From assembly GCF_030463535.1 (NCBI RefSeq), contig NC_132888.1:3107980-3171979 (forward strand): a stretch of 64,000 nucleotides of DNA, read 5' to 3'. Shown one piece after another: positions 40,797 through 61,452 of the stretch. Within the stretch, counting starts at the first letter, position 1, and each line of letters begins with the position of its first letter. The position numbers and the translations under genes are program-made. A model generated the notes under the pieces. That model had not been told where the DNA came from, searched no databases, and worked only from the letters and a program-made list of their open reading frames with translations. This DNA comes from Salminus brasiliensis (taxonomy: Eukaryota; Chordata; Actinopteri; Characiformes; Bryconidae).

Positions 40797-40801
<5 letters not shown>

Positions 40802-40833: not shown

Positions 40834-40835
<2 letters not shown>

Positions 40836-40989: not shown

Positions 40990-41396
40990 TTCACGGCATT
41001 TAGCAGGTGTTCTTCTCCAGAGCGACTTACAAAAGTGCTTCACTGTTTACTCAGAAAATACCCTGAGCTAGTTCGTAAAAACTAGGATCCAAAAGACCCC
41101 TCTAATCTTGGGAAGTCCTCTCAGAAGAGGAGGAGGGTCTTCAGTCTGGGGTTGAGGACAGCGAGTGTTGGACTCTGCTGTTCGGACACCCAGGGGAAGC
41201 TCGTTCCACCACTTCGGTGCAGGACAGTAAAAAGTCTGGACGCTCGTCTTCCGTGGATCTTAAAGGATGGCAGGTCGAGCCGAGCCGTACTTGAAGCTGG
41301 AAGGGCTCTTGGTGCGGATCGGCTTTTGACTAAGTCCGGAGGGGCTGGCTGGTCCAGTATTGGCTTTGTAGGCCAGAGTCAAACACTGTTAGGCTA
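40990..41396 (+). mobile_element. Retroelement 3' fragment, copy 3
   Basis: Same family as 26265-26735: GAAGCTCGTTCCACCACTTC and GTCTGGACGCTCGTCTTCCG are shared. Confidence 0.65.
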
Positions 41397-41939
41397 AGTG
41401 AGGGACATTGTCCTTGCACAATAGACACGAGACAGGATGCATAGACAATAAGTACAAATATGTGCATGGGGAAATGTGTGCTGAAGGCTGGATGGTTAAG
41501 TCCTGACTAGGTTACTATACTAGCAGTAAAATGGAGTAAATATGTAGAGCAGTGATGAGCTGTGTGTGTAAATTTAGAGCAGAGTTTAGGTGTGTATGCT
41601 GAGGTAGACCAGACTGGTGTTGTAAACGAGGTGAGAGAGAACAGTACACTGCTTGTATACAGCAGGGGGAGTCCCTGAGCTAGTGGAGCTCAGTGTGGGT
41701 ATGATGAGTGAACAGTGCAATGAAGAAAAGGCTGTAGCATGGATTGTAAACTTAATCAAATGTGAACCTGACATACATAAGCAGGATATGATGAGTATGA
41801 TTATGATAAAATACTAAATAGACTGTACTGGGGACACTTTATTCTAAATATTCTAAAACACAGATTAGGGGTTTATTAGAGTAGAGAATAAAAGATTATT
41901 CTCTATGCATTATACTTCGTTTATTATGTGATGTGGAGT

Positions 41940-42610
41940 TCTGTTATGTAAAAAAAAAAACACTAATCATTGCATTATCAGTTGTAATAATGCACAATAA
42001 ACAATGCACCAACCAGTTATGTCAATTATTAAGCATAATTGTATCTTTATCAGTACACAATTGGAGTTTTATGTGAAAAAAATTGCATTATTAGTTTAAT
42101 CAACAATTTACCATCCTGTTATGCAAATCAAGCATAGAATTGCCTTTATCATTACATAATTGGAGGTTTGTTATTTGAAAATGGCATTATTAGTTGTTAT
42201 AATGATGCACAATAAACAATGTACCACTCTGCTATGTCAATTAGTAAGCATAAATAGCATAATTGGAGATTTGTTATGTATAAATCGCTAAAAATTGCAT
42301 TATTAGTTGTAATAATGCACAATAAACAATATACCACCCTGTTATGTAAATTAAGCATTAAATTTTTTTTTTTCGTACATAATTGGAGGTTTGTTATGTG
42401 AAAATCGCTAATAATTGCGTTATTAGTTTTAATAAACATTTTACCACCCTGTTATGTAAATTATTAAGCATAAAAGAACCTTTATCAGTACATAATTGGA
42501 AGTTTGTTATGTGAAAATCGCTAATAATTGCATTATTAGCTGTAATAACACAATAAATATGCACAATAAACAATATACCACTCTGCTATGTCAATTATTA
42601 AGCATAAATA
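41940..42610. repeat. AT-rich tandem repeat, units about 100-120 bp
   Basis: The CATAATTGGAG(G/A)TTTGTTATG landmark appears near 42057, 42157, 42259, 42378 and 42492, each followed by AATTGCATTATTAG and CAATAAACAAT. Confidence 0.85.
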
Positions 42611-43045
42611 TACTAAGAAATTGTCATATGTGTGATCTCTGTAAAGCTGTTTTGTGACATTCGTTGTGAAAAGCATAAATAATGATGATCATCACATGAC
42701 AGAGCTCCAATATTGTACTAATATAGGCCATTAGATCACACAAGATGAACCATAATAAACCCCTAATTTGTGTTCCTTCAAATAGTGTTACCACACTGTT
42801 AAAGGTATTGAAACTGTGGACTCTTAAGGTGCTTTGAGGAACCTTCATGAAAAGGTTTTTAGAAGAAAAAAGAGGTTCCTCTATTATTATTACACCCTCA
42901 CACCTAACCATGTCTAATGTAAATTGTGCATTTTGGTACACAACACAAAATAGTGTAGCCATGCAGTGATGGAAAGAGACCCAACAGTCGATTAGATGCT
43001 TGCACTGTAGTCCACTGTAATGAGGATTGTAAAATCTGAAAGTGG

Positions 43046-43665
43046 GCAAAATTTAAAGAGACAGTCCATAAGATTTGGGTATTTGCGGATTTGGAGACCT
43101 CTCTGGTGAGAATGTGTAATTGCAGCAGGCAGGGCGGAAGAGCACTGTTAAAATGTGCGCTGTGGTGCGTTCTCCTTTCAGAGCGGATGAATTTAAACAC
43201 TGCGTGTTTACATTTAGTCAGTTTCTCCGGTCGGACAGGGGGTGAATCAGCAGATGAAGGCTAAGTTAGCCGCTCTGATATCTCCATGTTCGCAGCAGCT
43301 CTCACATTAGCTGTTCTGTCTGTATCAGCAGCATTAGCAGCGTCGTGATTACTCAGGTAACCAGTGAACGGTGCTGGATCCTCTTTTAGAGCCTGTACAT
43401 GTGATGGAAGTATGTAAAGACGTGACAGGGCCAGGAAAGCTCCCATGAAAACCTACCAGACCAAAATTTAAAGAGACAGTCCATAAGATTTGGGGATTTG
43501 GAGACCTCTCTGGTGAGAATATGTAATTGCAGCAGGCAGGGCGGAAGAGCACTGTTAAAATGTGCATTGTGGTGCGGTCTCCTTTTAGTCAGTTTCTCTG
43601 GTGAGACAGTGGGTGAATGAGCAGATAAAGGCTCCCATGAAAACCTACCAGACCACTCTGTCTGT
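43046..43665. repeat. Direct duplication of about 420 bp
   Basis: AAATTTAAAGAGACAGTCCA begins both copies (about 43048 and 43467); the second copy is shorter by internal deletions. Confidence 0.85.
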
Positions 43666-44089
43666 TTTTAGAAAAAGGAATATATGAGGCTGTGCAGGGA
43701 CGGTCGCTCAGCACACTGATACTATTGATTACAGTAGTTTTGCCCCTCCCCTCTCAGACAGACCACTTGATTGATAAATTAAATGAAAAAAAATATTAAG
43801 GACTGCTGCTTTAAGCTGTTTGCATATTGTAGCAGGTCTTTATTTAGTCTTAAAACAAATACTCATTGTATTCTTAGCTCAGGCCACCTTAGGAACCCAG
43901 TTCTGCTCATTTGGCTCACTGGATTTCAGCTTGATGCAATAACAAACATGCTTTATAAAGAACAGCATCTCAATCAGACATTTTATTATACAACATTAGC
44001 ATGAAGTAAACATATGCTTATAAACAATACAGCCACAATACGCTAATATCAGTAATCTGGCTAGATGCTCACCAGACGTTCAACTAATA

Positions 44090-44349
44090 TTCACCCGTTC
44101 CACAGTTCCACTGCTTCACAGCTCTATGGCCCACACCTGGCATTAATAGGCAGCATGATGCCAATAGGTTCATGTTGTTTATCTGCTTCAGACCATCCTA
44201 TTCTATTGGCAGTACTTCTCTACAGGGACTGGATAAGCCTAGACTGCAAAGCTGTGCATATGTGTGTGTGTGCATTTGCACATCTGTGTCAGCAATGGGT
44301 CCGACTTATAGTAGCTGATCAGATTGGGTGTCCACAAACATTTGGACAT

Positions 44350-44357
<8 letters not shown>
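44090..44357 (+). mobile_element. MITE family A, copy 9 (right half)
   Basis: Retains the CAGTACTTCTCTACAGGGAC and GGTGTCCACAAACATTTGGA landmarks; the left half is missing. It ends 62 bases beyond the stop of gene B. Confidence 0.68.
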
Positions 44358-44392
<35 letters not shown>

Positions 44393-44418
44393 ATATATAT
44401 GCTGTAGGTCTGTGAAGC

Positions 44419-44647
44419 TCAGTGCCTGTTAGGGAAAGTCAGGAGCAGCAGAGGGAGCAGTAGGAGAAGAGAGTGGCTGAATGACAGTGAGGGGCTGCTG
44501 TTCGGCGTGGTGGGGGTAGAGTTTCCGAGGCCTGGAACCGTAGTCGTTCTGGGAGCCTCGGTCGTGTTTGGAATTACGCCAGTAAACAGAATCTGAGCGC
44601 TTCGCACCCCGACCCAGAATGTGGAGAAGTTCTGTACAAAGGTAGCC
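44419..44647 (-). CDS. Gene B coding exon 4 (linker, tail, stop)
   Basis: Acceptor CTTCCAG. It encodes ATFVQNFSTFWVGVRSAQIL, a linker with sequons NTT and NST, a leucine-rich hydrophobic tail and a TGA stop. Confidence 0.87.
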
Positions 44648-45186
44648 CTGGAAGACAATGACAAACACAGTATGACCCCCTGTCCTCGTCGCGAACCGTA
44701 CGGCCTTCAGTAAGTGTGAAGTCTTAGAGCACGCCTACCTGAACTCTATATCCCTGACCCCGCTGGCCGGGGGCGTCCATGTAGCCTGGACAGTTGTCTT
44801 CATGCTGCTGGATGTGTGACTGACTGCTGAGGCCTGGGGAGGAGGTCATGTAAAAGTGACAGTAATGAATGACGCTGCTGTGCTGTTTTCATGTTATCCT
44901 GAATGTATTTGGGGCAGCTGTGACTTTAAGGATGGAGACACAAGCTTAGGACTAGAAGGTTGCTGGTTCAATTGTCAGGAGCAGCATCCTTCCCTCGAGT
45001 GAAGCACCTAACCCCAAATTGTTCCCTGGGTGTTTAAGGTGGCTGCCCACCACTCTGGATGTGTAGCTCTAGACAACTTGCATAGTTTGAGTATGGGAGG
45101 ATCCAGTCAGCAGCTCATCATTGTAGGTTATTGTATATAGAATTAGTTCCAAATATATTTTGGAATATTATATTATTATTATTATT

Positions 45187-45223
<37 letters not shown>

Positions 45224-45803
45224 TATATATTAGTATTTCATAGTATTTAAGCATCCTTTAGAGTAGGGCTGGGCAATTCTGGTACTAGAGGGCTGGATTC
45301 CTGCAATCAGCTTATATATATATAGATTCCCACATTTTAGGGAATTTGCAGTGGTCAGCACATCCACCGTTGTGATCATGGTCACACAAAAACCTCATAT
45401 ATTCAAAACAGCCAATTTATAGGAGGAGGAAAGAACCCTCTTCACTTTCAATGGAAGTCAAAGTCATTTTAGAGCATTATTATTGATCCATTTAGCAAAA
45501 AACAACGGCCACATTCACATCATGGAGAAAAATGAGATCATTTCTGCAGTTTACAGTTTGAAAACACTCACTCAACACATTCATTGTGTTTAATTTTTAG
45601 AATAATAAATGTGTCAATAAGAGTAGCTAGTTTTTATCTCTTTGTAGTTTTGACACACTGTGTGTGTTTGAGAGTGAGACAGAGATAGTATGAGAGTTAA
45701 TTATGAGATTTAAAATACCAGATATATATACACTATTTTAATATATATATACACTATTTTAATATATATATACACTATTTTAATACTATATACTATAATA
45801 TTA

Positions 45804-45868
<65 letters not shown>

Positions 45869-47176
45869 CATATAATATATATATAATCATATATTCACAT
45901 AAACGTAATTCCAAACCTTTACAAAGGTATTTAAGCATCCGTTAGAGCAGGGATGGGCAATTTCGGTCTTGGAGGCCTGTGCTTTTTCCTGCTCAAGCTC
46001 AGCTGATTCCTCACCAGTTCATTTTCCAGGTTTAGTAGGTCAGTCAGAGCACTGAAATCAGTACACTGTGCTGGACTTCAGCCCCTTTTGCCCACTGCTG
46101 CTTTACAGGATGCTACAGAACAGCTGCGAACAGCTACGAACTACAAACGCCCCCTAGTGGTCCATGAGCCTACAGCCAGAGCAGCCAGAAGCCAGTATGA
46201 ATCCAACAAAAAGGGGAAAAATAGTGTTTTTAAACAGAAAACTGTATAAATTGTCAATGTTATGCAAAAACCTTGTATCTCCACCATTGCAGTTTTTCAT
46301 TTTTTTGTTATACACATTGTGACCAAATTTTCCTGATGAATGGACCAATAGAAGCGTTCCAAAATGACCCGGAATACAATCTCCAAATGTTTTGGAGACA
46401 CAAGGTTTTTGCGTGACCATGATCACAAAGGTGGTTGTGCTGACCACTGCAAACTCCCCAACTGTGGGAATCTCGACTGTATCAGTTCTGAAAGTAAGGG
46501 GGCTGCTTTCCCACTCATCCTTAATTCTTCAGTGGCAGTGTCGGCTCAGTGGTTGAAGCACTCCATTATTGGTCACAGGGTTGCGGGTTCGATACCGGGG
46601 TCTGCTAAGCTGCCCCTGTTGGGCCCTCTCTCTGCACCAAGTGAGCTGTAGCATGCACTCTGACCCTAGCTGTCTAACCTGAGAAGCCTCTAGTTCTACA
46701 TTAAGGGAAAACATTAGGAACCCTGCCGCAGAAAGAGGGCTCGCTTACTTCCCCGCTGCAGTCGAGCAGCTGAGCTTCACTCCCCATCACACTGAACATC
46801 CCGACCGGCCCCTCTCCCGTCACTGCGTCTCGAGCCTGAAGTAGAAAACCCCTGAACGCCGTTTGGTTGGCCTGCAGGGTCACTGTGGAGAAAAGCACAC
46901 CATCAACCTTCATCCATCTGACCGTGGACTCAGTGAGCCTGCAGGATCTGGACAGACCGTCCTCTCTGCTGTGATCCCACCTGTAATCTTCTGGCCAGCC
47001 ATGTAGGTCAAGTTGCCTGATACCACCGAGAAGGGTGGAGGGGTCGAGATGGGAGCAAGGCCATGACCTGGTGTCATTCCAACACAAGCAAGAGTTACTC
47101 TACCATTCGAGAAAGCTGACACTCTGGAGAGAGAGGAGCCTCCCAGCAAAACCAGGAAAATGAAGGCACCGTGCAT
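44419..47176 (-). CDS. Reeler-domain protein, short, probably GPI-anchored (gene B)
   Basis: Coding exons on the minus strand 47176-46981, 46882-46749, 44833-44739 and 44647-44419 join in frame to 217 codons plus stop, all with GT-AG introns. Residues 1-21 are a signal peptide ending SRVSA. The Reeler domain follows: AFSNGRVTLACVGMTPGHG, TAFRGFLLQAR, AVSHTSSS, then TFVQNFSTFWVGVRS. After about residue 165 comes a Thr/Pro/Ser/Asn linker, then a tail of ten leucines and one proline closed by TFPNRH, which resembles a GPI-attachment signal. The family includes FRRS1 (Reeler, DOMON, cytochrome b561) and insect Reeler-only defence proteins; here nothing follows the Reeler domain. Function unknown. 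The start codon directly follows an acceptor AG, so the 5' leader lies in another exon. An AATAAA on the minus strand at 43987-43982 is a possible poly(A) signal. Confidence 0.85.
44739..44833 (-). CDS. Gene B coding exon 3
   Basis: Acceptor CCCCAG, donor TTCAG|GTAGGC, phase 2 end. It encodes ASAVSHTSSSMKTTVQATWT and PPASGVRDIEF, matching the Reeler motif H-x(n)-K-x(n)-W. Confidence 0.85.
44944..45065 (+). mobile_element. tRNA-derived SINE fragment
   Basis: GTTGCTGGTTCAATTG (box B like) is followed by GGCTGCCCACCACTCTGGAT, shared with the SINE at 4189. Confidence 0.55.
45715..45870. repeat. TATA-rich microsatellite in gene B intron 3... of coding series (intron 2)
   Basis: Repeats of TATATACACTATTTTAA lead into a (TA)n run, between gene B coding exons 2 and 3. 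Confidence 0.85.
46533..46645 (+). mobile_element. tRNA-derived SINE
   Basis: GGCTCAGTGGTTGAAGCA (box A like) and GGGTTCGATACC (box B like) with the shared CTGCCCCTGTTGGGCCCT phrase. It lies in gene B intron 2. Confidence 0.65.
46749..46882 (-). CDS. Gene B coding exon 2
   Basis: Acceptor CTCCACAG, donor GAA|GTAAGC, phase 0 end. It encodes VTLQANQTAFRGFLLQARDA and LLDCSGE, the Reeler core with the conserved FRGF and QAR. Confidence 0.87.
46981..47176 (-). CDS. Gene B coding exon 1
   Basis: Begins CAG|ATG and ends ACAG|GTGGGA in phase 1. It encodes the signal peptide and the Reeler opening (AFSNGR, CVGMTPGHG, GNLTYMAGQKIT). Confidence 0.85.
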
Positions 47177-47379
47177 CTGAAACAGCAGACAGACCAATGC
47201 TGTAAATACAGACAGATGAACATTCCCCGGCCTGAGACTAGAAGATTAGAGGGCCCATTTCACCAGCTTTCAGAACTCTGTTCATTCCTGAGTCCAAAAA
47301 CTGCCCATTTCAAATCCAGTATGTTTGTGATGTCACCAAAACAATGAGGCATTTCCCAGTATCCACCTACCCAGCTAAT

Positions 47380-48244
47380 AGAGAGCGATATAAGATCGTA
47401 AGAAAAAACGCTTTGATAACCTAAAATGAGCTCCTCGTTAAAAAAGCGTTAATTAATAAACATTAATTTAGAAATGTCTTTATTATTATTACATTATGTT
47501 TTGAATATAAACATTGATACTTTTCCTTATATATTTATATGTACATATATATATTAAAGGCAATACTATATTCGATACATAAATACATATATATCATAAT
47601 AAATTAGATTATTATATTAAATAAGGTAGAATAACATTATTCCAGATCATGATATCGGAGGTTTTGGACTTATAAGAAAGTTAAAAGATGAGCTCCTTGT
47701 AACGCTGCAGCAACATTACCAGAATAAAAAAAACAAAACATTTAATTTAATTAAAAAAAACTTTCTAGGAATGTCTTAATTATTATTAAATTATGTTTTG
47801 ACCAGAGATATTTTTACTTTTCCTTAGTAATACATACATGAACATGCATGCAATATTATATTGTATTTTGACTACACACCTACACACACATTTATATATA
47901 TATATATAATATATAATATTACCATTACATAAGTTTTAATAATTAAAATTTCAATAACATCATACCAGATCATGAAGTTTTGGACTTTTTTTCAACAATC
48001 AACAATCAAAAAACGCTTTGACTACTTAAAACCCAAAAACGAGCTCCTCATAATGCTGCAGCAATGTTTACCAGAATGTTAAACAAACGCTAAATCAAAA
48101 ACGTATTTAATATTATTCCCTTTTTTACTATAAATACTTTTCCTATTGTAATTTATCTATAAAAATCTATAATCTATATTGTAATCTATATTCCCTTGTA
48201 ATTTATATGAATTAAATGCACATTGTCATATTGTATTTTGATTA

Positions 48245-48320
<76 letters not shown>

Positions 48321-48560
48321 GAATAATTCCAATTAGAATAACATCATACCAGATCAAGATACCATAGATATTTGGATATGAATGATATATATATGAATAT
48401 TTAATTGTATTTTGACTATATATATATATTTATATATATATACTATAATTGATTATATAAATATATTTGCTATATACTATTATGCCATTAAATAAGTTTT
48501 AATAATTTAAATAAAAAAAAAACATCATACCAGATCATGATACCTGAAGTTTTGTATTGT
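47380..48560. repeat. Diverged AT-rich repeats upstream of gene B coding exon 1
   Basis: CATACCAGATCATGA-type motifs recur near 47640, 47965, 48345 and 48529, and AACGCTTTGA / GAGCTCCTC blocks near 47409 and 48006, suggesting old units of about 320 bases plus (CA)n(TA)n at 48247-48316. Confidence 0.6.
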
Positions 48561-48628
48561 TAATTGATTGTTAATTAAATATTGAATAATAAAACAAAAC
48601 AAAAAACAGGGTTAGACAGCAGGCCTAC

Positions 48629-48731
48629 CTTCTCAGAGTCGTTATGAGTGTGCTATAGTCCAGCGTGTGTAAGTAGGACTGATATCTGTGTATCTGTGTA
48701 TGTAGGATGGCCAGATGAGTGTGTATATATA
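48629..48731 (-). promoter_or_regulatory. Possible TATA box and 5' leader exon of gene B
   Basis: On the minus strand a TATATATA (48731-48724) lies about 95 bases upstream of a good donor, GAGAAG|GTAGGC, at 48629/48628. Spliced to the acceptor at 47177, this would give a short untranslated first exon of roughly 65 bases. It is inferred from the CAG|ATG start of the first coding exon; no transcript data. Confidence 0.35.
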
Positions 48732-48739
48732 CACACACC

Positions 48740-49600
48740 AGCTCTTTCTCCTAAACACACATCCTCATTACTGCGGCCTCTGGAAAGGAAGGAGGAAACA
48801 GCCGAGATATGGCGGAAGCACACGGGCTAATTCCTGAAATACTGAGGTTGATTTAGGTTATTACACTCTCAGGAACAGCCACTGGTAAACACTGAGTTAA
48901 TGAGTGACCTGGTTGGGACGAGGAAAGTAGCCGGGCGTCTCCACTGTGTGACGAGATGATGAGTTGTTCTGCCATACAGTAATAAACGATTTATCATTTG
49001 TTCCATTTCGACATGATTAGGGTTGTGTGTATGAGGTATTTTGGACACCCTTTGCATAATTAGACTTTCGGTTTATTGAGAAGTAGTACATTCAGCCTTG
49101 GCTACGGGCCTAAAAATAAAGGTGCCTTGAATGGTTCTTTGAGGGATACCATAGAAGAACCACTTCTGCTTCCATAAATGTTGTGTGTGAGTGTGGAAAA
49201 ACCTCTTAAAGCTCTCAAGAACCTTCATTTGTTGGAGAAGGTTCTTCACACTCACTCATCTCTATCACATCCTCATGGAACTACAAGTGGCTCTTCTATG
49301 GCGTCCCTCAAAGGACCCTTCGAAGCACCTTCATTTTTATAACATTTTCTCAGAAATCCCAATGAACAAATTTGAATGATTCAAAGCGGGCTGTTCAAAA
49401 GTTTGGATACCCTGTGACTTTGGACAAGGTCTTACATCGAACTCTTCAAACCTTGCCAAACAAGCACTCGTCAACCTGGACTCCTATGAGCAGCTGTCTA
49501 ACAGTGGTGCACTGTTCTACTGTGCAGCGTTGCTTGCCCAACATTAAAAAGGGAACCTTAATCCTGACCTTGTTACAAACCTATGTGCTTTAGATATGCT
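48740..49600. other. Intergenic spacer between the divergent Reeler genes (left part)
   Basis: Holds a foldback MITE at 49108-49345 whose arms (AAAAATAAAGGTGCCTTGAA and its near reverse complement) flank a short centre. Nothing gene-like is seen. Confidence 0.55.
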
Positions 49601-49619
49601 ACAGAACGTTAGCTGTGGG

Positions 49620-50660
49620 GTTCCAACCCCCTACACCTTTCCATGGTCCAGGCCTACACTTAGGAATGTCTGGGGCCGTACCTTAGAGGCTCTGTCACAG
49701 TGCTTCCTCCCTAATGGGACTATTGGGTACTGCCAGGGCCGGGGCCAGTTTTCGGACTGGTGACATCAGCTCCTCATGGAATTCCTTATTTACTGCAAGG
49801 CATCACTACCCTTCCCCATGGGACGCTCTGAGCCTGCCTATGGTGGTTCCCAGGTTCCCTCCTCTCCCGTGGATCCACACTGCCCAGAATGACTCCAGTT
49901 TTAGCGCCTCAAGGGATTCCTGTTCCTGCTCTCGAGATGACTCTACTAGGTTTCTGATCTGTGCTCTGACCAGAACTCCATCCCTTTTTACAGGGAAATT
50001 TGTGAACTGCCCTTTGTAGTGGACCTTCTCCTTGCACCAACCCCCTACACCTTTCCACGGTCCAGGCCTACTGTCTGGGGCCATACCTTAAAGGGCTCTG
50101 TCGCAGTGCCTCCCCCCTAACGGGACTATTGGGTACTGCCCAGGGCCAGGGCCATGTGCGCTGCATTTATTATTTATTTTTAGACTGGTCACTTCACCTC
50201 CCCCTCCTGGACTCCTTATTTACTGCAACGCATCCCCTTCACTTCCCTTCCCTTCAAGTCGCTCTGAGCCTGTGGTGGTTCCCAAGTCGCAGTGCCCAGA
50301 GTGACCCCAGCTTTTGCACCTCAGTGAATTCCTGTCCCTGCACTCTGCAAGGTCATGACCCTTTGTCCCTTTTCAGGGGAAAATTTGGGAAACTGCTCTA
50401 TGCAGTGGACCTTCTCCCTACACCAGCCGTGCCTTTCTGTGGTCCAGGCCTTCCTTCCATCCTTCCCTTTGGTGCTTCTCGAGCCGTACCTTACAGGTCA
50501 GGCAATGCCACAATAGCTCCCCCCCCCCAATGGGACTATTGGGTGCTGCACAGGACCAGGGCCATGTGCATTGAGTTTGATTTCTGGACTGGTCACTGGA
50601 CTGGTCACTGTTTTGGACGGCTCCCCCTCCTGGGCTACTTATGTACTGCACATGTCCTTG
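49620..50660. repeat. About 400-bp tandem repeat, three copies
   Basis: CCCCCTACACCTTTCC(A/C)(C/T)GGTC begins units near 49628 and 50040, with a third, diverged start near 50420. Units share GGGACTATTGGGTACTGCC and CTTATTTACTGCAA. Confidence 0.8.
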
Positions 50661-51239
50661 TTCTGTGTGTTTGGACTGGGCAGGTCGTTTGTAGCCTCAC
50701 TTGTGTTCTGCCTCTTCTTGGTGGTGGTTTCTTACTGCTTTTTGCTCAGGCTGTGTATTTCGAGTTTCGCAGACTGTCCCTGCCCAGTGTTTTGTGTTCT
50801 GGATTACTTTATGCTTCAGTTGAATTAATGACTGTGGCTCTCAGGTTCCCTCAATTGAAGCTCTTATGCACATACAACCCACCAGTTCCTCGCTACCATC
50901 GCTACAAACACAAACTGGACACTGCTCACATCGTTATTATAGCTCCAAACTGGTCGGGCTGCATGAATTCCACTAAAATTAGCCTGAAACACAAGATGCT
51001 TCTTTCACGCCCACATGAAACTGAAGCGCTTGGTTTAAAAAGGGTTGCGATCCCGTTCTCTCCTCATTACGTCTCTGAGTTTCTCTCACTGTTACAGCTG
51101 GAGGTCATAGCATACAGCAAAACAAGAAGACTGTGGAAGGTAAGTCAAGGGTCTGATACTATTAGGATACATACAGAACCATTAACCAACTCCACTCTAA
51201 CTGGAAAACGGCAGGATTGAGGAAACGTATGAAGAAAAG

Positions 51240-51306
51240 GTTTCTTTAAATTCCTTAAATTCTTTAAATTCCTTAAATTCTTTAAATTCCTTAAATTCTT
51301 TAAATT
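51240..51306. repeat. 18-bp tandem repeat
   Basis: CCTTAAATTCTTTAAATT repeated between three and four times. Confidence 0.85.
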
Positions 51307-51430
51307 GAACATTTCTTTATAATTGAATTCTAGAAGTTGGGCTTCGGTGTGAAATTGAGGGTCATTATAGAGGCTTCGTTGCGGCGGTGTTGATAGGAAC
51401 CAGGTTCTAGATTCACAAAAGTGAAGGAAG

Positions 51431-51871
51431 AAATTCAGCCATAACATTAACACCACTGACAGGTGACGTGAAAAAGATATAGACTTGATCTCGTCATCTA
51501 CGGCGGCTCCAGTCAAAGGGTGGATAGTAGGTGAACGGTCAGTTCTTGAAGGTGCTGAAGCAGGAAAAATGGACAAGCGTAAGAATCTCAAACACTTTGA
51601 ACCAAACTGTGAGGTTCTAGATAAACGACTTGGTCATTAGATCATCTCCACTAAAACATCAGGCAGGTCTTGAGGTGGGGTGTTTCCAGTATGCAGTGGT
51701 CAGTACCTACCAAAAGTGCTCCAAGAAGGACAACTGGACAACTGTTGACAGGGTCATGGGCACCCAAGGCCTCAAGGGTCCCACCTGACGACTTACAGAA
51801 CTTGTTTTAAAGGGATCTTGTGAGGATCTTAATGTGAGGCAGGGGGTGTTAATGTTGTGGCTGACTGGTGT
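51431..51871. mobile_element. TIR element family D, copy 1
   Basis: Left end CAGCCATAACATTAACACCA, right end GTGTTAATGTTGTGGCTG: inverted repeats about 440 bases apart. Non-coding. Confidence 0.7.
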
Positions 51872-51994
51872 TTGCTTCATATTTAAGTTATGATATGTCA
51901 CCAGGTTTATATCTTTTGAGTCCTGATCTGGTTCTAAATGACTCTCAGGCTTCTTTGTTAGGGACTTTGAAACGCGTCTTGCTGTCGTGGATAT

Positions 51995-52310
51995 CTTAAG
52001 ATAAGATAAGATAGTCCTTTATTAGTCCCGCAGTGGGGAAATTCACATTTCAGATGTTCCTTCACACTTCAGATGTTCCTTCACTTAAAATGTGGTTGAC
52101 TCAGATATCAGACCTCTTTCCACTACAGAAGCTTATCTTTGAGATTCATAAGAGGCAGCAAAGGTTTGGGAAATCTGGTCATCAGTCGGGAGGATATTCA
52201 GGATTAGAATCAGAATCAGATTCAGAGCCAGAATCAGATTCAGATTCAGAATCAGACTCAGAATCAGATTTATTGGTCAAGTATGTTCACACACACAATG
52301 AATTTGTTCC
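51995..52310. repeat. Simple-repeat-headed fish repeats
   Basis: A GATAA run followed by AGTCCTTTATTAGTCCCGCA, then (GAATCA)-type hexamers and ATTTATTGGTCAAGTATG; both phrases are common dispersed fish repeats. Confidence 0.55.
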
Positions 52311-52435
52311 AGCTGTTAGCATCTGTCTAGTATTAACAATACACAGCTACTCTACATATAATTTACATACAATACACAATATACTGTGATAAATGATCTA
52401 TGTCTGTTATACTGCCCTGAATGCTGTTTTGCCCC

Positions 52436-52437
<2 letters not shown>

Positions 52438-52488
<51 letters not shown>

Positions 52489-52510
52489 GTAGTAGTAGTA
52501 GTAGTAGTAT
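52438..52510. repeat. (TTA)n(GTA)n microsatellite
   Basis: Triplet run of TTA changing to GTA. Confidence 0.95.
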
Positions 52511-53073
52511 CTTTTCTTTGTTTTACTCAATCAGCTATTCAATTCATATTGTATGGGAACCTCCCGCTGTTTTTGCTTTGTATATTTCAAGCTCTGTAAA
52601 TCAATAAATTTACAATAAATACATACAAATAATAACAAAATACAATATATACAATAAATGTAAGTCAATAAGCATACAATTATAAAAAAGCTAAGGACTG
52701 ATTATTCTTTAAAAAAAATCCTAAGATTTATTTTTTCATATTTTTCATATTTTGTTCTGTTCTGTTTTTTTTGTTTTGTTTTTTTTAATTAAGAACAACA
52801 AAAATTATTTTTTAAATATTTTCTTAATCTTGCGACGGCCTCACACTGGTTTTAGACTATAAGCCTCAAAGCCGATCAGTTTAAGTAGTTAAATTCCAGA
52901 ATTTTTCTCATTCATTGTAATTTAACCGGATTAAAGAAGGAAATTGGTCGTAAAGTAACGTACTTCTTAAGAAATATTAAGAAATAAATTAAAACTTTAA
53001 GAGAAGATTTGACTTGTTTAGTGTTTGTTTCAAGATTCCTCATAAGATTTGTCTTAGGAAAGTTTTTGTGAAC

Positions 53074-53106
<33 letters not shown>

Positions 53107-53123
53107 CCATTATATTTACTATC

Positions 53124-54068
53124 CAGAGGTGTCAAGTATTGAAGTACAAATACTGTAAATTCTGTATCTTACTGAAGTAATAATGTTGGTTCTCTAAACT
53201 TTACTAGAGAAATTATTTACTTCTACTTCTCAAATTTTCCCCCAATTATCTGAACTTTCTCCTCCTTACATTTTAAAAACAGCCTCGTTCCTCCTATTTC
53301 ATTTCCCTTAGTTTTCATTCCGGCTCGTCATCAATAAAAACCCTCTCCAGATAAATCCTGTGAGTCTGATCCTGATTGGATGAGAAGTATAAACAGACTC
53401 CATTCTGACTCCCTATTGGTTTATAAGAGATCCATCACACCTGCACACGTCCCGTCCCTCTCCAGCGAGCTCACAGCAGACGTCTAGTCTAGTATGAAGA
53501 CTGTGTCCGTGGCAGAGACTCAAGAGAGCTGCAGTGAAACGTCCCGACTGAGCCCCACATTTACATTCCAATAAAGCTTATTGATCACACGCCTCTGAAG
53601 TCTGACTTTCTGCAGCGTTACAGAACTTCTAGACAACGACTCCTCATATTTTCCTCCATGAAGCTCATGTTAATGCTCAGTAGAGCACAGAGACGCTCCT
53701 TTAATAGAGCTGATATTACTGAAATGCTTCATTTTCAATGGGCAGATCTGCAGCTGAAACAGGAGCCTAGTGCAGCCCAACATTTTTAACATCAACATTT
53801 TAATAGATCATTCTCCTCATTATGACTTTTAGAGAAATGGGGTTTTGGGGAGGTGGGGGGAGGGGGGGTATAGAGCACTATAGACCCCTGTGGTGCGGCC
53901 TAAGCTTTCGGCCTTTGTTTTCCTTCCATTACTTTTACTTTTCTACTTGAAGTTGTTCTGAAACCAGTACTTTTACACTTTTACTGGAGTAAAAAGCTTC
54001 AGTTGATACTTCAGCTTCTACAGAAGTCTTTTAAACCCTCATATCTCCACTCACTTCTACCTGAGGAA
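53124..54068 (+). mobile_element. hAT-like non-autonomous element, copy 3 (longest)
   Basis: Begins CAGAGGTGTCAAGTATTGAA and ends near CTACCTGAGGAATG. It closely matches 1-655 (direct) and 14300-15240 (inverted). It ends about 175 bases before gene C coding exon 1. Confidence 0.75.
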
Positions 54069-54243
54069 TGAATGTGAATAAAAGTTGGATGGATTCTGCA
54101 TTAGGACTAATAACTGAATCATAAACCGAGGGGTTATTTGTGTTAATAATCATTAATATTAATGCACCCGTTTGGCCAGCTTTTAAAAAATGAGCTTTTT
54201 TAGACTTGCATTGTTTCTCATGTGTCTGTTTTTCTTTTTTCAG

Positions 54244-54433
54244 ATGGGTCTTCTGCTCTTGGTGTTGGTGGGGATGAGCTGTATGGGGTTCAGTTCTGCT
54301 TACTCCAATGGATCTGTGAGCAGTGTGTGCGTCTCCATGCTGCCAGGGCATGACAATGCTGCTCAAACCACCGCCCCACTGTACCAAGTCAGAGTCAACA
54401 GCACCTCCTATAGACCTGGCGACTCCATCATGG
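54244..54433 (+). CDS. Gene C coding exon 1
   Basis: Begins TTTTTTCAG|ATG, as in gene B, and ends ATGG|GTCAGT in phase 1. It encodes the signal peptide and the Reeler start. Confidence 0.85.
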
Positions 54434-57400
54434 GTCAGTCGAGCCTCCTCCTTCTGCAGATATATAATTCTAAGCTTTAATCTAATCTAAAGTGCACATA
54501 CACTAAATTGACATAAGTATTGGGACACCTGCTTATTCGTTGTTTCTTCTGAGGTCAAGGGTGTTAAAAAGAGTGTATCCTGCTTTCGTTGGAGTAACTG
54601 TCTCTACTGTACTCTGTCTCTACTGTAGGGAAGTAGAGCTTTCTGCTAGATTTTGGAGAAGCATTGCTGTGAGGATTTGATTGCAATCAGTGAGGTCAAA
54701 ATGTTGGATGATCAGCACCCCAAGTCATCCCAAAAGTATGGGATGGAGCTCCACTATCCTTCATTCTAGAGAACACAGTTCTTCCACTGCTCCACAGCTC
54801 AATGCTGGGGGGCTTTATACCCCTCATTGACCAAGACAACCAGACAGAGACTTTAACCCATCCATGCGATTAGTACACAGGCCCGGAGCAGTGGGCAGCC
54901 TCTGTCACAGCACCCATTGAGCAGTGAGTGTTAGGGGCCCAACAACTTGGCTAACCCCGGTATAGAACCCACAACCCTGTCATCAATAACCCAGTGTTTA
55001 ACCACTGAATCACAGTACCTCTCTACAGGGACTAGACAAGCTGTGTGTGTGTGTGTTTGCACATCTGTGTCAGCAATGGGTGCAACTTAGGGGTGTCCAC
55101 AAACATTTGGGCATATGGTGTATGAATACCTTGTCCTGTATGGCTGTTTTTACTGGATAATAAATGAAGGTAGGTGTCCAAAAACCTTTGGTGGGCAGTG
55201 TATTCATGTAACTGTGTAAAGTCAGTGTTAACATGGAATGACCCTCAGTGTTACATGAATGCTTACCTTGTAGTGATGCTGGAGGCAGTGGATAGCGGGA
55301 CTGGCTTCCGGGGCTTCATGCTGCAGGCTCGCAGGACAGCGAACGGGGCGGCCGTGGGCTCCTTCAGCTCCGCAAACACCAGCCTGTTCAGACTCCACGA
55401 CTGCTTCAGTGGGATGGTGCTTATAGCTATTACTGTATTACATAGTACTAGATGCACAACAGCCTTTTGCAAGTACGGCCCCACTGTTGGCGTTGGCCGT
55501 TGGTGGCCCCTGGATAAAATGGTCCCACCGATGGGATTTTCAAACACAGCGTAATCGAACAAGCTGGCCTACTTTGGCTTAGGCTGGTTTCTGATACCTG
55601 GTATATGTGTTAGAGTTACACGGATTAGCCAAAACATTATGACCATTATAACATGCTGTTGGTCCACTACGTGCCACCAACACAGCTCACTCTACAAGAC
55701 CTCTGAAGGTGGTATCTGTGGTATTTTGCACCAACACGATCCAGCAGATCGTTTAGGTCCCGTAAGTTGGACGGTGGAGACATACTGTTTCACCTGGACT
55801 GTCCACCTGTCCAAAATTGCATCACATGTCCACTGTTGACATTTTCGAAGGCAGACAGGTGTTAGCATGGGCACTCCAACTGGTCGGTTGCTGTACAGTG
55901 TATTGTGATACGTTCCTCCCATCGCAGATCCCAGTAGTTCGTCTGTCATGGCAGACCCAGCGGGATAGCCTTCGTTGCTCTCGCGCTTCGCTAAGTCCAG
56001 TGGCCAGTACGTGGTTTGTTTGTCCCGCCTCAGACCACTGACTCACCACTGTTCCACCTGGTGCTGTCCATGTGATGGAAAGGAAACTTGCTTCACTGCA
56101 AAGTCCAGTTCAGATGCTAGCATGTCCACTGTTGATGTTTTCGAGGGTAGACAGGTGTTAGCATGGGCACTCCAACTGGTTGATTGCTGTACAGTGTATC
56201 AGGACACGTTCCTCCCATCGCAGATCATTTCGGAGACGTTTGGTAAAGAACCAAGAATCAAGTGGTGGTTCTTTAGATCCTTTGTTTCTGTTACCATGGC
56301 AACCACCCATTTTTTTTTTACTTTAAAGGTTTATTGAGGTACTGATATCTGGAACTGAGATACCAGCCCATATGTAGATACAAGCACCTGCCCCGCGTGT
56401 CCCATGGTGCTGCGCCGATACCTCCGTCCGTCCCGGGACCCAGCTGACTAAATTACATGGGGCACTCAGGGCAGCCGCCCCCTTAGTTGCTCCTCAGACT
56501 CAAAGAGAGGGTGGAGCCCTGTTGACTTTCGGGGTGTGTGCTTGGCCAAGGGGCCACTGGTGCAAAGCTCCAATCTGTAGGATTATGACTGCATTTGTGG
56601 ATCTACCACTGGTAGACCTGAGGACTTGTGATTGGTCAGGGGTATGCTGATGTAAACCTGACCCACTTTTAGAACCATCACTTTAACCAAATTAAAGGTT
56701 CTCCACACATTCACTTCTATTACAGACACGGTTCTATTACGGTTCTAGAACCGAAAGTGGTTCTTTCATGGCATTGCTTGAAGAACCCTTTGAAGCAGCT
56801 TTATTTTTAGGAGTTATCGCCAGAGTGGTCATAATGTTTTGGGGCTTTGGTGTACAGACTGCAGCAGGCAAGCCAAGCTGAACTACGTTAAGCTGAATGC
56901 ATTCAGGTTAGAACATGTTCTGGTGGACGAAGGCGACCCAAGGATCGCTGGTTAGAATCCCGGGTCCAGTTGCTCGCCATCAGCAGTCGGAACTAGAGTG
57001 AGCACAACTGGCCCTGCTCTCTCCAGGTGGGTAGATGGCTCTCTCTCTTCCTATACACATCACATAGCCAGCGTGGTCGTCTGCTAGCCCATGCTTTAGA
57101 GTTGGGTACCTGGCGCAGTCTTCTGAGCGTGCTGGTTGCCTGATGTCGTTGCATTCGAGGCAGTTGGAAAAGAGGCGGTGGCCTCACCCTCTCAGTGTTG
57201 GGAGCATTACATGTGATTGGCTGGATCATTAAAAATTGGGTAAAAATTAGATATGCAAACTTTAATGTGGCCACAAGCCTTAAACCTCTCTCGTTCCTGC
57301 CTCCAGAACTCCACCATCAGCCATGCCTCTGACAGAAACAAAACAAACTTTGAGGCCACTTGGGTTGCACCTCTAACATCTTCTCCAGGCAACATTGAGT

Positions 57401-57728
57401 TCTGGTAATCAATCAGCCTCATCAATGGATAACCCAGCCATAACCGGGTTCCACTGACTAATTACAGGGTTCTGTGGTTCTGTTTCAGTGCAACATTTGT
57501 AAAGAACTACTCCCACTTCTGGACCATGGTGAGGAGCCCCATCGTCACCTCAGCCAGTTCAGTGGTGAGCAATGTCTTCCAGTCCATAATCCATAAATGG
57601 GTCACTTGTGATTCGCAGCCAAACAGAGTTTTCCTCATTTTTGCTGTCGACAGGTTTCGCTTTCGGCCCAGGTCACGGGTTTCTGCGTCCTGACCGCACT
57701 TGCTGTTATCTTCAGCTCAGTCCCTTAA
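54244..57728 (+). CDS. Reeler-domain protein, short, probably GPI-anchored (gene C)
   Basis: Exons 54244-54433, 55274-55416, 57307-57404, 57489-57564 and 57654-57728 join in frame to 193 codons plus stop. Residues 1-19 form a signal peptide (MGLLLLVLVGM..FSSA). The Reeler domain runs through AYSNGSVSSVCVSMLPGHD, SYRPGDSIM, TGFRGFMLQARRTA, HDCFSGM, STISHASDRNKTNFEATW, IEF and CATFVKNYSHFWTMV. The last exon encodes a hydrophobic end (VTGFCVLTALAVIFSSVP) like a GPI-anchor signal. It matches gene B in order and in exon breaks 1-3, but has one more intron near the C-terminus and almost no mucin-like linker. Function unknown. AATAAA lies 49 bases after the stop. The exon 2 donor (ATG|GTGCTT) is weak, so that junction is the least certain. 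Confidence 0.82.
54500..55122 (+). mobile_element. MITE family A, copy 10, with nested SINE
   Basis: Starts ACACTAAATTGACATAAGTA and ends TTTGGGCATATGGTG, in gene C intron 1. A reverse tRNA-like SINE (about 54826-55018; GGTTCTATACCGGGG on the minus strand) interrupts it. Confidence 0.72.
55274..55416 (+). CDS. Gene C coding exon 2
   Basis: Acceptor CCTTGTAG, phase 1. It encodes VMLEAVDSGTGFRGFMLQAR, then RTANGAAVGSFSS and HDCFSGM. The donor GTGCTT is unusual; it was chosen because it gives phase 0 into exon 3, as in gene B. Confidence 0.78.
55616..56853. mobile_element. Large TIR element related to family D, in gene C intron 2
   Basis: Left end TTAGCCAAAACATTATGACC and right end GGTCATAATGTTTTGGGGCT are inverted repeats. 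Inside are two direct copies of about 105 bases (CATGTCCACTGTTGA... near 55825 and 56120) and part of an AAGAACC-type MITE. Confidence 0.6.
56920..57240 (+). mobile_element. tRNA-derived SINE, second family
   Basis: GGATCGCTGGTTAGAATCCC (box B like) is followed by a body with GGTGGGTAGATGGCTCTCTC, ending about 65 bases before gene C exon 3. Confidence 0.55.
57307..57404 (+). CDS. Gene C coding exon 3
   Basis: Acceptor GCCTCCAG, donor TTCTG|GTAATC, phase 2 end. It encodes NSTISHASDRNKTNFEATWV and APLTSSPGNIEF, aligned with exon 3 of gene B (SHTSSSMKTTVQATW, DIEF). Confidence 0.82.
57489..57564 (+). CDS. Gene C coding exon 4
   Basis: Acceptor GTTTCAG, donor GTG|GTGAGC. It encodes ATFVKNYSHFWTMVRSPIVT and SASSV, the last Reeler strand. 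Confidence 0.83.
57654..57728 (+). CDS. Gene C coding exon 5 (hydrophobic tail, stop)
   Basis: Acceptor GTCGACAG. It encodes VSLSAQVTGFCVLTALAVIF plus SSVP and a TAA stop: a hydrophobic stretch ending within a few residues of the C-terminus. Confidence 0.8.
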   Translation, partial: VSLSAQVTGFCVLTALAVIFSSVP

Positions 57729-57776
57729 ACTCCACTCATAGGTTGGTCCACTTTAGCTCATGGAACCTCAAACATC

Positions 57777-57782
57777 AATAAA
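57777..57782 (+). other. Polyadenylation signal of gene C
   Basis: AATAAA 49 bases downstream of the TAA stop, implying a very short 3' untranslated region. Confidence 0.6.
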
Positions 57783-57984
57783 AACATGTGACAACTTTAT
57801 TACCCTAACTGGAAGAGAACCTGGAAGTAGCAGCACAACCCGACGTGGCCCAATAACATGTTTACTATCAAACCTTCTACCGGTTTCTTCTGGACCAACC
57901 AATCATCTCACTGTCTTTAACCATGTGTATAATATTGGACACATATGGAAGTTTTTTTTGAAGACCTTTTTAAATACACGAATA

Positions 57985-58800
57985 TGAACAATAACATATA
58001 AAACATAAAAAAATAATAATTGTGAATTACATAAAAGAAAAAAACATGTTTTCTGCCCCCTGGGGGATTATCTGTGCACTGCATGCACCCAAAAAATACA
58101 TACAGATTCTAATTTCATTGAGTACAAATTTTAGGTATCTCCAAGTACAAGGAGTTCATTAATAAATGTGTTCTATAATTGTGTTTAAGTAAAAAAAACA
58201 ACAACTATGAGCAATAAATTCCACATGTATCAAATATAATACAAAATAAAAGTCCTATAAACAAAAAAAGTGTTCCTTTCTTTCTTTCTTTCTTTCTTTT
58301 TTTTTAAATAATTGGTCAGATATAAATAAACAGTCCAGTTCTGCAGAATTCAATTCATTCATTCATTCATTTTTGGACAATTTGAACCAATCGATGGTTC
58401 AGGCTTTTAAAAGGGTTAAAATCACCATCAAAAGGATTCATAGAAACTCTGAAACACTCCCAGTGAGTCGGTTCTTGTTCGTCTGCTTCTGAAAGAGACC
58501 AAGCTGATCCTCTATAGCTATTACACAGCAGTGCTGCAGAATTTAGCCTTACATTTAACCCAGCCATGGCAGTGAAAACACACACATACACACACACACG
58601 TATGTGCTCACTGCATGGATGGGTTAAAGACGGAGGCCAAATTCCATGTGTCGAACACTAAAGGTAAATGGTTTTCTAAGGCAGCGGTGCGGACGTTCTC
58701 AGAAGGTAAATAAAGGAGTTGAGGTTCTGCAGTTTTACAGTGGAACCTAAAAACAAACCATAATATCAGACCCTTTAAGAAACTCACTGAAATTCTGTTT
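57985..58800. other. Intergenic sequence between gene C and agl (left part)
   Basis: AT-rich; includes a (CTTT)n run at 58277-58298, and a SINE tail at about 58556-58640 (ATGGATGGGTTAAA, CA repeat). No gene seen. Confidence 0.5.
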
Positions 58801-58819
58801 ATTTTATATTAAAAAAAAA

Positions 58820-59310
58820 AGAAAATTGCAGAATTATGTTGTGGGGCCCAGTGTATATTAATATTAATATTAATAATAAATAATTAAGAATAAAAATGAA
58901 AAAAATTTGGACACAGTGTATAATAATAATAATAATAATAATAACAGCAATAATAATAATAACAAATAATTAGAATAAAAAAAACTGGTCAGAATTATAT
59001 TGTGGAACCCAGTGTATAATCACATTAATAATAATAATAATAATAACAGCAATAATAATAATAATAATAAATAATTAAGAATAAAAAAATTGGGCAGAAT
59101 TATGTTGCGAAATCCAATGTATAATCACATTAATAATAATAATAATAATAATAACAGCAATAATAATAATAATAATAATAAATAATTAAGAATTAAAAAA
59201 CTGGGCAGAATTATGTTGCGAAATCCAATGTATAATCACATTAATAATAATAGTAAATACATAATTAATTAAGAATAAAAATAAAATAAAAATGTGGTCA
59301 GAATTGTTTT
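58820..59310. repeat. Tandem repeat of about 110 bp built on (AAT)n
   Basis: CAGAATTATGTTG landmarks at about 58829, 58991, 59093 and 59206 alternate with (TAA)n-ACAGCAA-(TAA)n and AATAATTAAGAATAAAAA. Confidence 0.85.
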
Positions 59311-59934
59311 GTGGGACAGTCCTCTTATTGCAAATAATACACAAAACAGAAAAGGAACCACTGAGTAACTCCAACTTTCCAAATGGGAGAACATACAAAC
59401 TGAGTTTTCCCTCTTAGATTAGAGGAAATTCCCAGTTCCCACTCTGGAGCACTGGACTGCATGTAGATTGTATTTGTCATCTAAATAATAATAATAATAA
59501 TAAAAAAGAGGCTGTAAGAGATCTGAGGATCTTACCCATCCAACTTTGTTATTCAACAGTTTTACAGAATCAGAAATATAATCTTTAAAAAGAATGTTAT
59601 TAAAGTTCATATTTATCAGGGATCATAACATAACGGACACATCACCACTATGCGTCTTCGGGTGCGCCAGGGTGTTCTCAATTCCGATGTTGAAAAACAT
59701 AAGTGAGTTCGGGCTGGAGGGAGGTCGGGATGTGCAGACTTTGAGGGTCGGGGTTAGTTGGGAGTGAGAGTGAACTGTGTGGTTGAGGTCTATCAACTTC
59801 ACACCCACCTCACCACAGAGGGCTCAGAAAACCAGCGTTACCAGCTTATGGACATGAAAGGTCAGCTGATTGAAAGTGTGAATGTCCGTAATGCACATGT
59901 CATTGTGTATTTGTGGGCTATAAAAAGTGTAACT

Positions 59935-60140
59935 GACACTGTGGGGGAAGGTCTTTGCAGATGCAGTTCTGCATATATAACACCACTACCTGGGGTTCGA
60001 TTCCTGGTCTGGGTGACTGGGTATGCTGCACTACACCAATAAGAGTCCTTGGGCCAGACTCCTAACACTACATTGGCCCTCCTCTGTAATACCAGTAACC
60101 TTGTAAGTCGCTCTGGATAAATTCTGTAAATGTAAATGAA
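59935..60140 (+). mobile_element. tRNA-derived SINE
   Basis: GGGGTTCGATTCCTGG (box B) and the tail CTTGTAAGTCGCTCTGGATA followed by AAATGTAAATG, the common SINE/LINE tail of fish. Confidence 0.7.
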
Positions 60141-60334
60141 GTGGTCCGCCAGCGTTACGCTGAGTGTTTATCTACACTCCTAAAACCGACTGATCGATCT
60201 TTAAGCACCGAGAGCAAATACGACTACCACAGAAGCTGGGCTGAAAGGCTCATCTTCAATTTAATTTATTTTCTTTTACCTTGTTTAAACTTTCTTAAAA
60301 CTTTTTGTCTTAATTTATATTTTTTCATCACTAT

Positions 60335-60547
60335 TCAATTTTTTGCGTCCAGCGGTTTCATCCAATAAACTGGCCGAAATTCCTCAGCCGGGACTGTTTC
60401 TACACCACCATCTTTCCATTTTTTCAAATATCTCACAGGCCTAATCAAATAAAGCACACTGAAACCATCTGGATCTCTCTCTTTATTTTCCGAGTCTCCA
60501 GTGTTTTCTAATCGTACACGTCTATGTGTAAATTCCATCAAGTGCAT
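60335..60547 (-). CDS. Unidentified 70-codon open frame
   Basis: Starts ATG and ends TGA, encoding a charged sequence with RYLKKWKDGGVETVPAEEF, then RPVYWMKPLD. Composition looks protein-like (W, Y, K, E, D mixed; no simple repeat), unlike neighbouring frames. I do not recognise it. It may be a fragment of a transposon protein or a chance frame. It lies just downstream of agl on the same strand. Confidence 0.2.
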   Translation of the reverse strand: MHLMEFTHRRVRLENTGDSENKERDPDGFSVLYLIRPVRYLKKWKDGGVETVPAEEFRPVYWMKPLDAKN

Positions 60548-61452
60548 TCACAGGTAAGACACAGGTAAGACACAACCAGCCCTTCTAAATTAAACACACA
60601 CAGTAAACACACAAGCAAACCACGAAGACACACGGTTACAGAAACAGCAGCAGGACTACGGCCGTCGGTTCGATCACTGGAAGGGAATTCCGTGTTAGAG
60701 GAAGACTAAACTAGGAGTCGAAGGCAGTTCTTCATCTGCTCGTCTGCTGGGACATGTGAAGTGGGTTAGGCCAGGGATTGGACATCCTAGTAATACTGGC
60801 AGAGCACAGGTGTGTGTAACTTACAGTACCGTACAGTGTAGATGTACTTTATCTTACGCTGAGTGGCCAGTTTATTTAGTATACCTACCTTGTGCCTACG
60901 CTTGCTGGTCATTTTATTGGAAACACCTACCATATGGATGCATCTGTTGCTGCACAGTCTATTAGCCACCATGGAAGTGGAAGCGGCGTGGTTGTGTGTA
61001 AAAGGCATATTCTTCATTATACAGTGGCCACTTTATTGGAAACTCCTGTGTTTCTTGCTCCATTAGCTGGTGTCCTGCTGCTTAGACCAGTGTTACCTGG
61101 ACGCTAATCCTAGCCTAGCTGTTTTTGGAGAAAGGTCCACTACTCAAAATAATATCTGGTCAGCAGATGGATAACCAAGAGGTCTTATGGTGGTCCTCCC
61201 CCACTCACAGACTCACAGGGTCACACGGTAAAGCTGGGCTGATAAACTGTACTAAAGCAGATGAGCTACAGTGTAGGTAGGCCCTAATAAACCCAACAGG
61301 TAGGTGACACAGGTAGGTGAGACAGGTAGGTGAGACAGGTAGGTAGTACCTAATAAACAAGCAACTCAGTGTACACCGTTTCTACTGCCTCCAAGAAGCT
61401 CAGGTGCAACCAGAGGAACACCCAAGTCTGATGCCTCTCAGCTTCTGAAAGC

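Follow-up and report, generated by a model that had tools for sequence, protein, structure and literature searches.

Two divergent Reeler-only genes beside agl in Salminus brasiliensis and their probable descent from FRRS1-type genes

FRRS1 and SDR2 are CYBDOM proteins, in which a Reeler domain is combined with a DOMON and a cytochrome b561 domain and which are ferric-reductase-like. In the arthropod proteins Noduler, Hdd11, BmReeler1, PcReeler and LvReeler the Reeler is the sole recognised domain, and we know of no arthropod Reeler-only defence protein that carries a C-terminal membrane tail. Arthropod single-Reeler proteins bind bacteria and are immune-induced according to PMC12113285, and the function of the Reeler domain in FRRS1-type proteins is stated as not known in PMC10691727. 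Here we describe two small genes, designated A and B, which lie next to agl in a 64,000-nucleotide stretch of DNA from the fish Salminus brasiliensis (contig C11:3107980-3171979 of the 1.07 Gb genome; the whole stretch is called the window) and which, like these arthropod proteins, encode the Reeler as their only recognised domain. We consider it reasonably probable that A and B are FRRS1-family genes that were cut down to the Reeler domain, were given a C-terminal anchor, probably of the glycosylphosphatidylinositol (GPI) type, and have been kept by selection. Their coding exons are as follows.

Gene A, coding span: 44419-47176, minus strand, four coding exons, 217 amino acids, from splice sites and open frame
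A exon 1: 46981-47176, minus strand, signal-peptide-like start and Reeler onset, ends in phase 1
A exon 2: 46749-46882, minus strand, Reeler, ends in phase 0
A exon 3: 44739-44833, minus strand, Reeler, ends in phase 2
A exon 4: 44419-44647, minus strand, Reeler end, Thr/Pro/Ser-rich stalk and hydrophobic C-terminus (SHSLLLLLPLLLLTF), then stop
Gene B, coding span: 54244-57728, plus strand, five coding exons, 193 amino acids
B exon 1: 54244-54433, plus strand, signal-peptide-like start and Reeler onset, ends in phase 1
B exon 2: 55274-55416, plus strand, Reeler, ends in phase 0
B exon 3: 57307-57404, plus strand, Reeler, ends in phase 2
B exon 4: 57489-57564, plus strand, Reeler end, ends in phase 0 like exon 4 of frrs1a, frrs1b and gene C (see below)
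B exon 5: 57654-57728, plus strand, 24-residue hydrophobic C-terminus (VSLSAQVTGFCVLTALAVIFSSVP)

Both genes had been reported in a first-pass annotation as complete and as pointing away from each other at a distance of 7 kb, and this description was borne out: the two models could be rebuilt intact with open frames and GT-AG borders at all seven introns, and their ATGs, each of which sits directly after a splice acceptor, are 7.07 kb apart in divergent orientation. Pfam analysis confirmed one full-length Reeler domain (PF02014, profile positions 1-131 of 131) in each product, at residues 31-154 of A (E 2.2e-33; 124 of 217 residues, with stalk and tail besides) and at residues 29-156 of B (E 2.6e-33; 128 of 193 residues). 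No other family exceeded the cut-off, B giving one sub-threshold match to DUF6348. As likewise noted before, the N- and C-termini of both proteins are hydrophobic in hydropathy profiles, and the last 30 residues contain a single K, R, D or E in A and none in B. The cysteine pair of FRRS1-type Reeler domains is present in both proteins, each carries six N-glycosylation sequons, and small residues usable as a GPI attachment site were seen by eye in front of both tails. A signal-peptide-like start together with a terminal hydrophobic segment corresponds, as far as hydropathy tells, to a GPI-type layout, and the C-terminal anchor is probably GPI on these features. Because of the signal-peptide-like start, the earlier designation of A and B as ‘tail-anchored’ does not fit in the strict sense; what does fit is GPI anchoring or a short membrane segment at the C-terminus.

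The two proteins share 46% identity over 144 amino acids with an E-value of 2e-32, which excludes a chance match. Their first three introns lie at equal positions in phases 1, 0 and 2, confirming the annotated agreement in exon order and phase; it follows from these three shared introns, however, that four exons correspond and not three. For the Reeler genes of this genome, a Reeler-family profile search (19 candidates scored, six matches at E <= 1e-3) and a search with protein B (15 scored, 13 matches at E <= 10) were evaluated. Protein B recovered its own five exons, one exon of A, single pieces at frrs1a, frrs1b, gene C, gene D and a gene on contig C14, and two weak matches (E 1.8 and 5.6). 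The Reeler genes found are listed below; reelin's own Reeler was not seen in the genome search, so this list is a lower bound.

C11: A, B and frrs1a
C5, 16.77 Mb: frrs1b
C5, 2.56 Mb (C5:2554800-2566800): gene C, third gene of FRRS1 type but divergent, read incompletely; its exons include Reeler, DOMON and one or more b561-like ones
C1:2857043-2857207, minus strand: gene D, Reeler, of which the first two exons were read (Pfam E 1.8e-11); a stretch downstream reads N
C14: a gene that we take to be REELD1-like
C13 and C19: two Spondin-1-like genes

That Spondin-1-like and frrs1-type genes occur in two copies each would agree with a teleost genome. Comparison of the frrs1a and frrs1b loci revealed four Reeler exons in each, followed by DOMON, linker and b561 exons that correspond in series between the two genes, the model of frrs1b having no located start codon. 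Among single exons of these genes only DOMON pieces reached Pfam, and these stayed below cut-off; joined exon peptides matched DOMON at 4e-19 (frrs1a) and 1.6e-14 (frrs1b) and, in frrs1b, Cytochrom_B561 above cut-off at 2.4e-5. A reading of gene C as a third Reeler-only gene was rejected. Its four Reeler exons are followed by DOMON exons (46.7% identity, E 2.6e-17, with the exon that opens the DOMON part of frrs1a; joined exons, Pfam DOMON 1.4e-9) and by an exon resembling the first b561 exon (50% identity to frrs1b, E 1.5e-10), and it is therefore regarded as FRRS1-type. A last exon with a hydrophobic tail was looked for in gene C and nothing convincing was found. By eye, intron 4 of gene C holds a minisatellite-like stretch.

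The Reeler intron phases 1, 0 and 2 are common to A, B, frrs1a, frrs1b and C; A and B display both the PF02014 domain and the Reeler intron positions and phases of FRRS1-type genes. A further intron follows exon 4 in phase 0 in frrs1a, frrs1b and C, where it leads to DOMON, and in B, where it leads to the hydrophobic last exon; exon 5 of B thus occupies the place of the first DOMON exon of FRRS1-type genes. Exon 4 of A is without this intron and reads through to the stop. In other Reeler genes the exons are cut differently: Reeler exons 2 and 3 are fused in the C14 gene, which is 28-31% identical to A and B, and the Spondin-1-like genes are 25-36% identical and have at least one break at another place (from tblastn pieces with approximate splice sites), so that neither the Spondin-type Reeler sequence nor its exon breaks were found in A and B. 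Like FRRS1 and SDR2, therefore, A and B have the Reeler domain, the phases 1, 0 and 2, in B also the phase 0 after exon 4, and a neighbourhood with agl and frrs1a. They differ from these proteins in their hydrophobic C-terminus, in a Reeler identity to frrs1a and frrs1b of 35-42%, and in that no DOMON or b561 part was found; as the hydrophobic C-terminus stands in place of DOMON and b561, A and B are read as genes without the redox part.

The absence of this part was examined in the window together with 20 kb to its left and 40 kb to its right. With 17 exon peptides from the DOMON, linker and b561 regions of frrs1a and frrs1b, tblastn detected no such exon in this DNA; three matches at E <= 0.5 were obtained, the best at 0.088, all short and unlike. 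As a control, all 17 peptides recovered their own gene and all 17 the other frrs1 gene. Five peptides of gene C, all of which hit one or both frrs1 genes at E < 0.05, gave a single low-complexity match in the same DNA (E 0.095), and all four peptide matches in the A/B region are chance-like (E 0.088 to 0.42). Six-frame Pfam scans of 40720-44418, 47180-54243 and 57730-64000 with E up to 1 returned GDE_C and one sub-threshold AF-4 match only. Since Pfam on its own detects split b561 exons poorly, the b561 negative rests on the exon-peptide tblastn with its positive control. In the searched DNA, then, neither the DOMON nor the cytochrome b561 domain of the ferric-reductase class was found with A and B, and the earlier description of the pair as Reeler-only surface-type proteins holds, both genes being intact and apparently under selection.

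The Reeler domain of A is 52% identical to that of C, its nearest relative among those found in the genome, 43-46% to B, 42% to frrs1b and 40% to frrs1a; that of B is 38% identical to C, 35% to frrs1a and 35-36% to frrs1b, and frrs1a and frrs1b share 54%. In a four-sequence comparison, the tree grouping A with B against frrs1a with frrs1b was preferred by 15.6 log units, the two alternatives having a p-value of 0.02 in the Shimodaira-Hasegawa (SH) test. When all 15 trees of A, B, C, frrs1a and frrs1b were compared under WAG and a codon model, the best tree joined A with C, then B, against frrs1a and frrs1b. Trees with A+B or B+C were worse by 5.6 and 5.7 (WAG) or 3.4 and 3.3 (codon) log units, with p-values in the approximately unbiased (AU) test of 0.12 to 0.31, and the 12 trees without the frrs1a+frrs1b split had an AU p-value <= 0.018 under both models. 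Runs of four trees under LG, JTT and LG+I+R2 agreed with this comparison, which indicates for A and B an FRRS1-type lineage separate from that of frrs1a and frrs1b. A recent origin of A and B by copying of frrs1a, to which they are linked, was rejected, as both are equally far from frrs1a (40 and 35%) and from the unlinked frrs1b (42 and 36%) and the trees parting frrs1a from frrs1b all fell at or below that AU value.

An inverted duplication had been proposed as the origin of the pair. It is possible, but no inverted DNA homology was detected in the exons, and A is nearer to the unlinked C (52%) than to B (43-46%). Blastn of the A against the B gene region gave seven matches at E <= 1, none of them in a coding exon and the two best resembling dispersed repeats, and the 25 longest inverted-repeat pairs, out of 223, include none that covers the genes. 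Separate losses of the DOMON-b561 part in A and in B, twice and side by side next to agl, are a tentative reading that we would hold somewhat doubtful. This idea derives from the two ways in which the tails are built, by read-through of exon 4 in A and by a separate exon 5 in B, and from the grouping of A with C and not with B in the best tree. If true, an electron-transfer protein would have been turned twice into a GPI-anchored Reeler display protein, and fishes would possess a family of FRRS1-derived surface receptors.

In the scheme that we propose, A and B would retain just the four Reeler exons of an FRRS1-family gene. A small hydrophobic terminal exon, entered in phase 0, would stand in B where the DOMON exons should start, and exon 4 of A would extend through a Thr/Pro-rich stalk to a hydrophobic end. 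Both proteins would be routed into secretion, where the C-terminal signal may be swapped for a GPI anchor or be kept as a short membrane segment, and the N-glycosylated Reeler beta-sandwich might then be shown at the cell surface, serving in adhesion or recognition without catalysis. The GPI anchoring, the glycosylation, the role in surface adhesion or recognition and the sequence of the losses are all putative.

Several observations weigh against this interpretation. For frrs1a the b561 assignment misses the Pfam cut-off (E 0.036), and in gene C, with one b561-like exon read, Pfam matched no b561. Two of the 12 trees rejected by the AU test, both with A and C together and B beside one of the frrs1 genes, are not rejected in the SH test (p 0.28 and 0.12). 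Wider trees of seven or nine sequences, including the REELD1-like, Spondin-like and D sequences, mostly have low support; they recover no A+B group, one of them no A+C either, and C is placed with weak support next to the Spondin-like genes. The anchor and the signal peptide rest on hydropathy, the expression and exon ends of A and B are predictions, and two splice donors look weak (GTGGGA after exon 1 of A, GTGCTT after exon 2 of B). With synonymous sites saturated, moreover, the estimate of selection is an average that may include time spent as a full-length gene.

The weak donors would also suit decaying partial copies of FRRS1, that is pseudogenes, or mis-modelled ends of longer genes, and partial duplication would yield the very loss of the catalytic part that A and B exhibit. 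The proportions of synonymous and nonsynonymous differences between A and B are 0.72 and 0.38, respectively, synonymous change being saturated, and against this divergence the intact frames and splice dinucleotides of both genes argue that they are maintained. In simulated neutral decay of the A frame by substitutions only, just six of 2000 frames stayed open after 0.5 substitutions per site, and no remnants of lost exons were found in the searched 20 kb to the left, window and 40 kb to the right. Decaying or mis-modelled genes thus appear very unlikely, and A and B appear, from their sequences, to be under purifying selection on average. The first-pass annotation had named a tree placing A and B as broken FRRS1 copies as the outcome that would speak against it; the trees do place them in the FRRS1 family, but their frames are unbroken. 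That A and B instead act as regulatory partners or decoys of full-length FRRS1-type reductases, tuning ferric reduction through a shared ligand or by pairing with FRRS1 on the same cell, would agree with the persistence of frrs1a, frrs1b and C in this genome and with the position of frrs1a, which begins about 45 kb to the right of the window with agl in between. As the role of the Reeler in FRRS1-type proteins is given as not known (PMC10691727), such a function seems improbable.

Less improbable, though still unlikely, is that A and B are the vertebrate counterpart of Noduler, Hdd11 and LvReeler and bind microbial surfaces on skin or mucosa. In favour of this are the bacterial binding and immune induction of the arthropod proteins (PMC12113285) and a salmon transcript labelled ‘putative defense protein Hdd11’, which is grouped under innate immunity and is about 25-fold lower in lice-parasitised fins (PMC7177938). 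Unlike the arthropod proteins, A and B have a C-terminal hydrophobic tail where a soluble protein would have no membrane tail, A has a stalk, and both are FRRS1-type in intron pattern and Reeler sequence. The fish Hdd11 names are homology labels that can be linked to neither A nor B. Presumably gene D is closer to the insect Hdd11 type, and it may be what the fish names mean. The changes described for hdd11 in salmon and, as under-expression of tilapia ‘putative defense protein Hdd11-like’, in cichlid egg-spots (PMC5012078) are decreases and not induction. PMC9854719 gives values for goldfish ‘putative defense protein 3’ of 0 in white, 22.97 in yellow and 9.53 in brown skin, and a chromatophore figure legend in PMC11640764 names frog DFP1. 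These reports suggest that some gene named Hdd11 or putative defense protein is expressed in fin or skin; it is assignable to neither A nor B, and gene D could bear the names just as well. An assignment of A and B to pigment cells, prompted by the goldfish values and frog DFP1, was rejected, as cichlid hdd11 is under-expressed in egg-spots and gene identity is unmatched. GPI-anchored, glycosylated proteins are common on gamete surfaces. A function of A and B on egg or sperm nevertheless appears far-fetched, being proposed in the first-pass annotation only; no pointer to the gonad was found in the sequences of A and B or in the literature examined, and the name-matched fish reports concern fin and skin. 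Neither of the roles suggested earlier, in immunity or on egg and sperm, is hence supported.

Selected zebrafish literature on pigment, neural crest and skin contained no mention of Reeler, reelin, ‘defense protein’ or a candidate zebrafish locus name, and literature listings, which hold few subscription journals, included no study of vertebrate Reeler-only proteins among the matches listed. Fish genes named ‘putative defense protein Hdd11-like’ and ‘putative defense protein 3’ do, by their names, suggest Reeler-only proteins like A and B, and because of these name-matched reports fish Reeler-only proteins are probably not new as such. What is added here is the proposed FRRS1 descent, the two differing ways of anchoring, and a comparison of A and B with the FRRS1-type genes that this genome also holds. 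A and B may be viewed as natural separations of function, in which the Reeler stands alone, apparently under selection, and an anchor replaces the catalytic part; their ligand, tissue and knock-out phenotype would reveal what the Reeler does without the reductase. They also serve as a warning that a fish gene named for an insect ‘defense protein’ might derive from FRRS1 and not be an immune gene.

Further features of the locus are given below. The position of the pair beside agl, as annotated, was corroborated by minus-strand matches to GDE_C at the window's right end and beyond it.

48629-48700, minus strand: candidate non-coding first exon of A, donor GTAGGC, start inferred
51066-51139, plus strand: candidate non-coding first exon of B, donor GTAAGT, start inferred
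57777-57782, plus strand: AATAAA, a poly(A)-signal-like hexamer about 50 bases past the B stop, hexamer match only
16863-39121, plus strand: ADAMTSL-like gene left of the pair, with TSP1 repeats, ADAMTS spacer and PLAC
61471-64000, minus strand: 3' part of agl with GDE_C matches, the gene running on rightward past the window

The ADAMTSL-like gene, for which eight of ten submitted open frames matched TSP1, ADAMTS cysteine-rich, ADAMTS spacer or PLAC (some below cut-off), faces gene A with its 3' end, and agl likewise faces the pair with its 3' end. The first coding exon of frrs1a begins beyond agl. The stretch behind frrs1a on C11 resembles that behind frrs1b on C5 (best E 2.7e-17), suggesting a pair of duplicated blocks; both stretches may represent palmd.

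TATA-like boxes lie above the candidate first exons of A (TATATATA at 48724-48731) and B (TTTAAAAA at 51034-51041), and the putative promoters would thus be arranged head to head about 2.3 kb apart. Between them, a degenerate repeated stretch was seen by eye at 49540-50700, in which the motif GGGACTATTGGGT occurs three times; the tandem-repeat finder did not list this stretch as one array. About 100 bases at 44261-44359, just past the A stop, are 76% alike in blastn to 55042-55124 in intron 1 of B, in the same orientation, and this likeness is probably that of a dispersed repeat.

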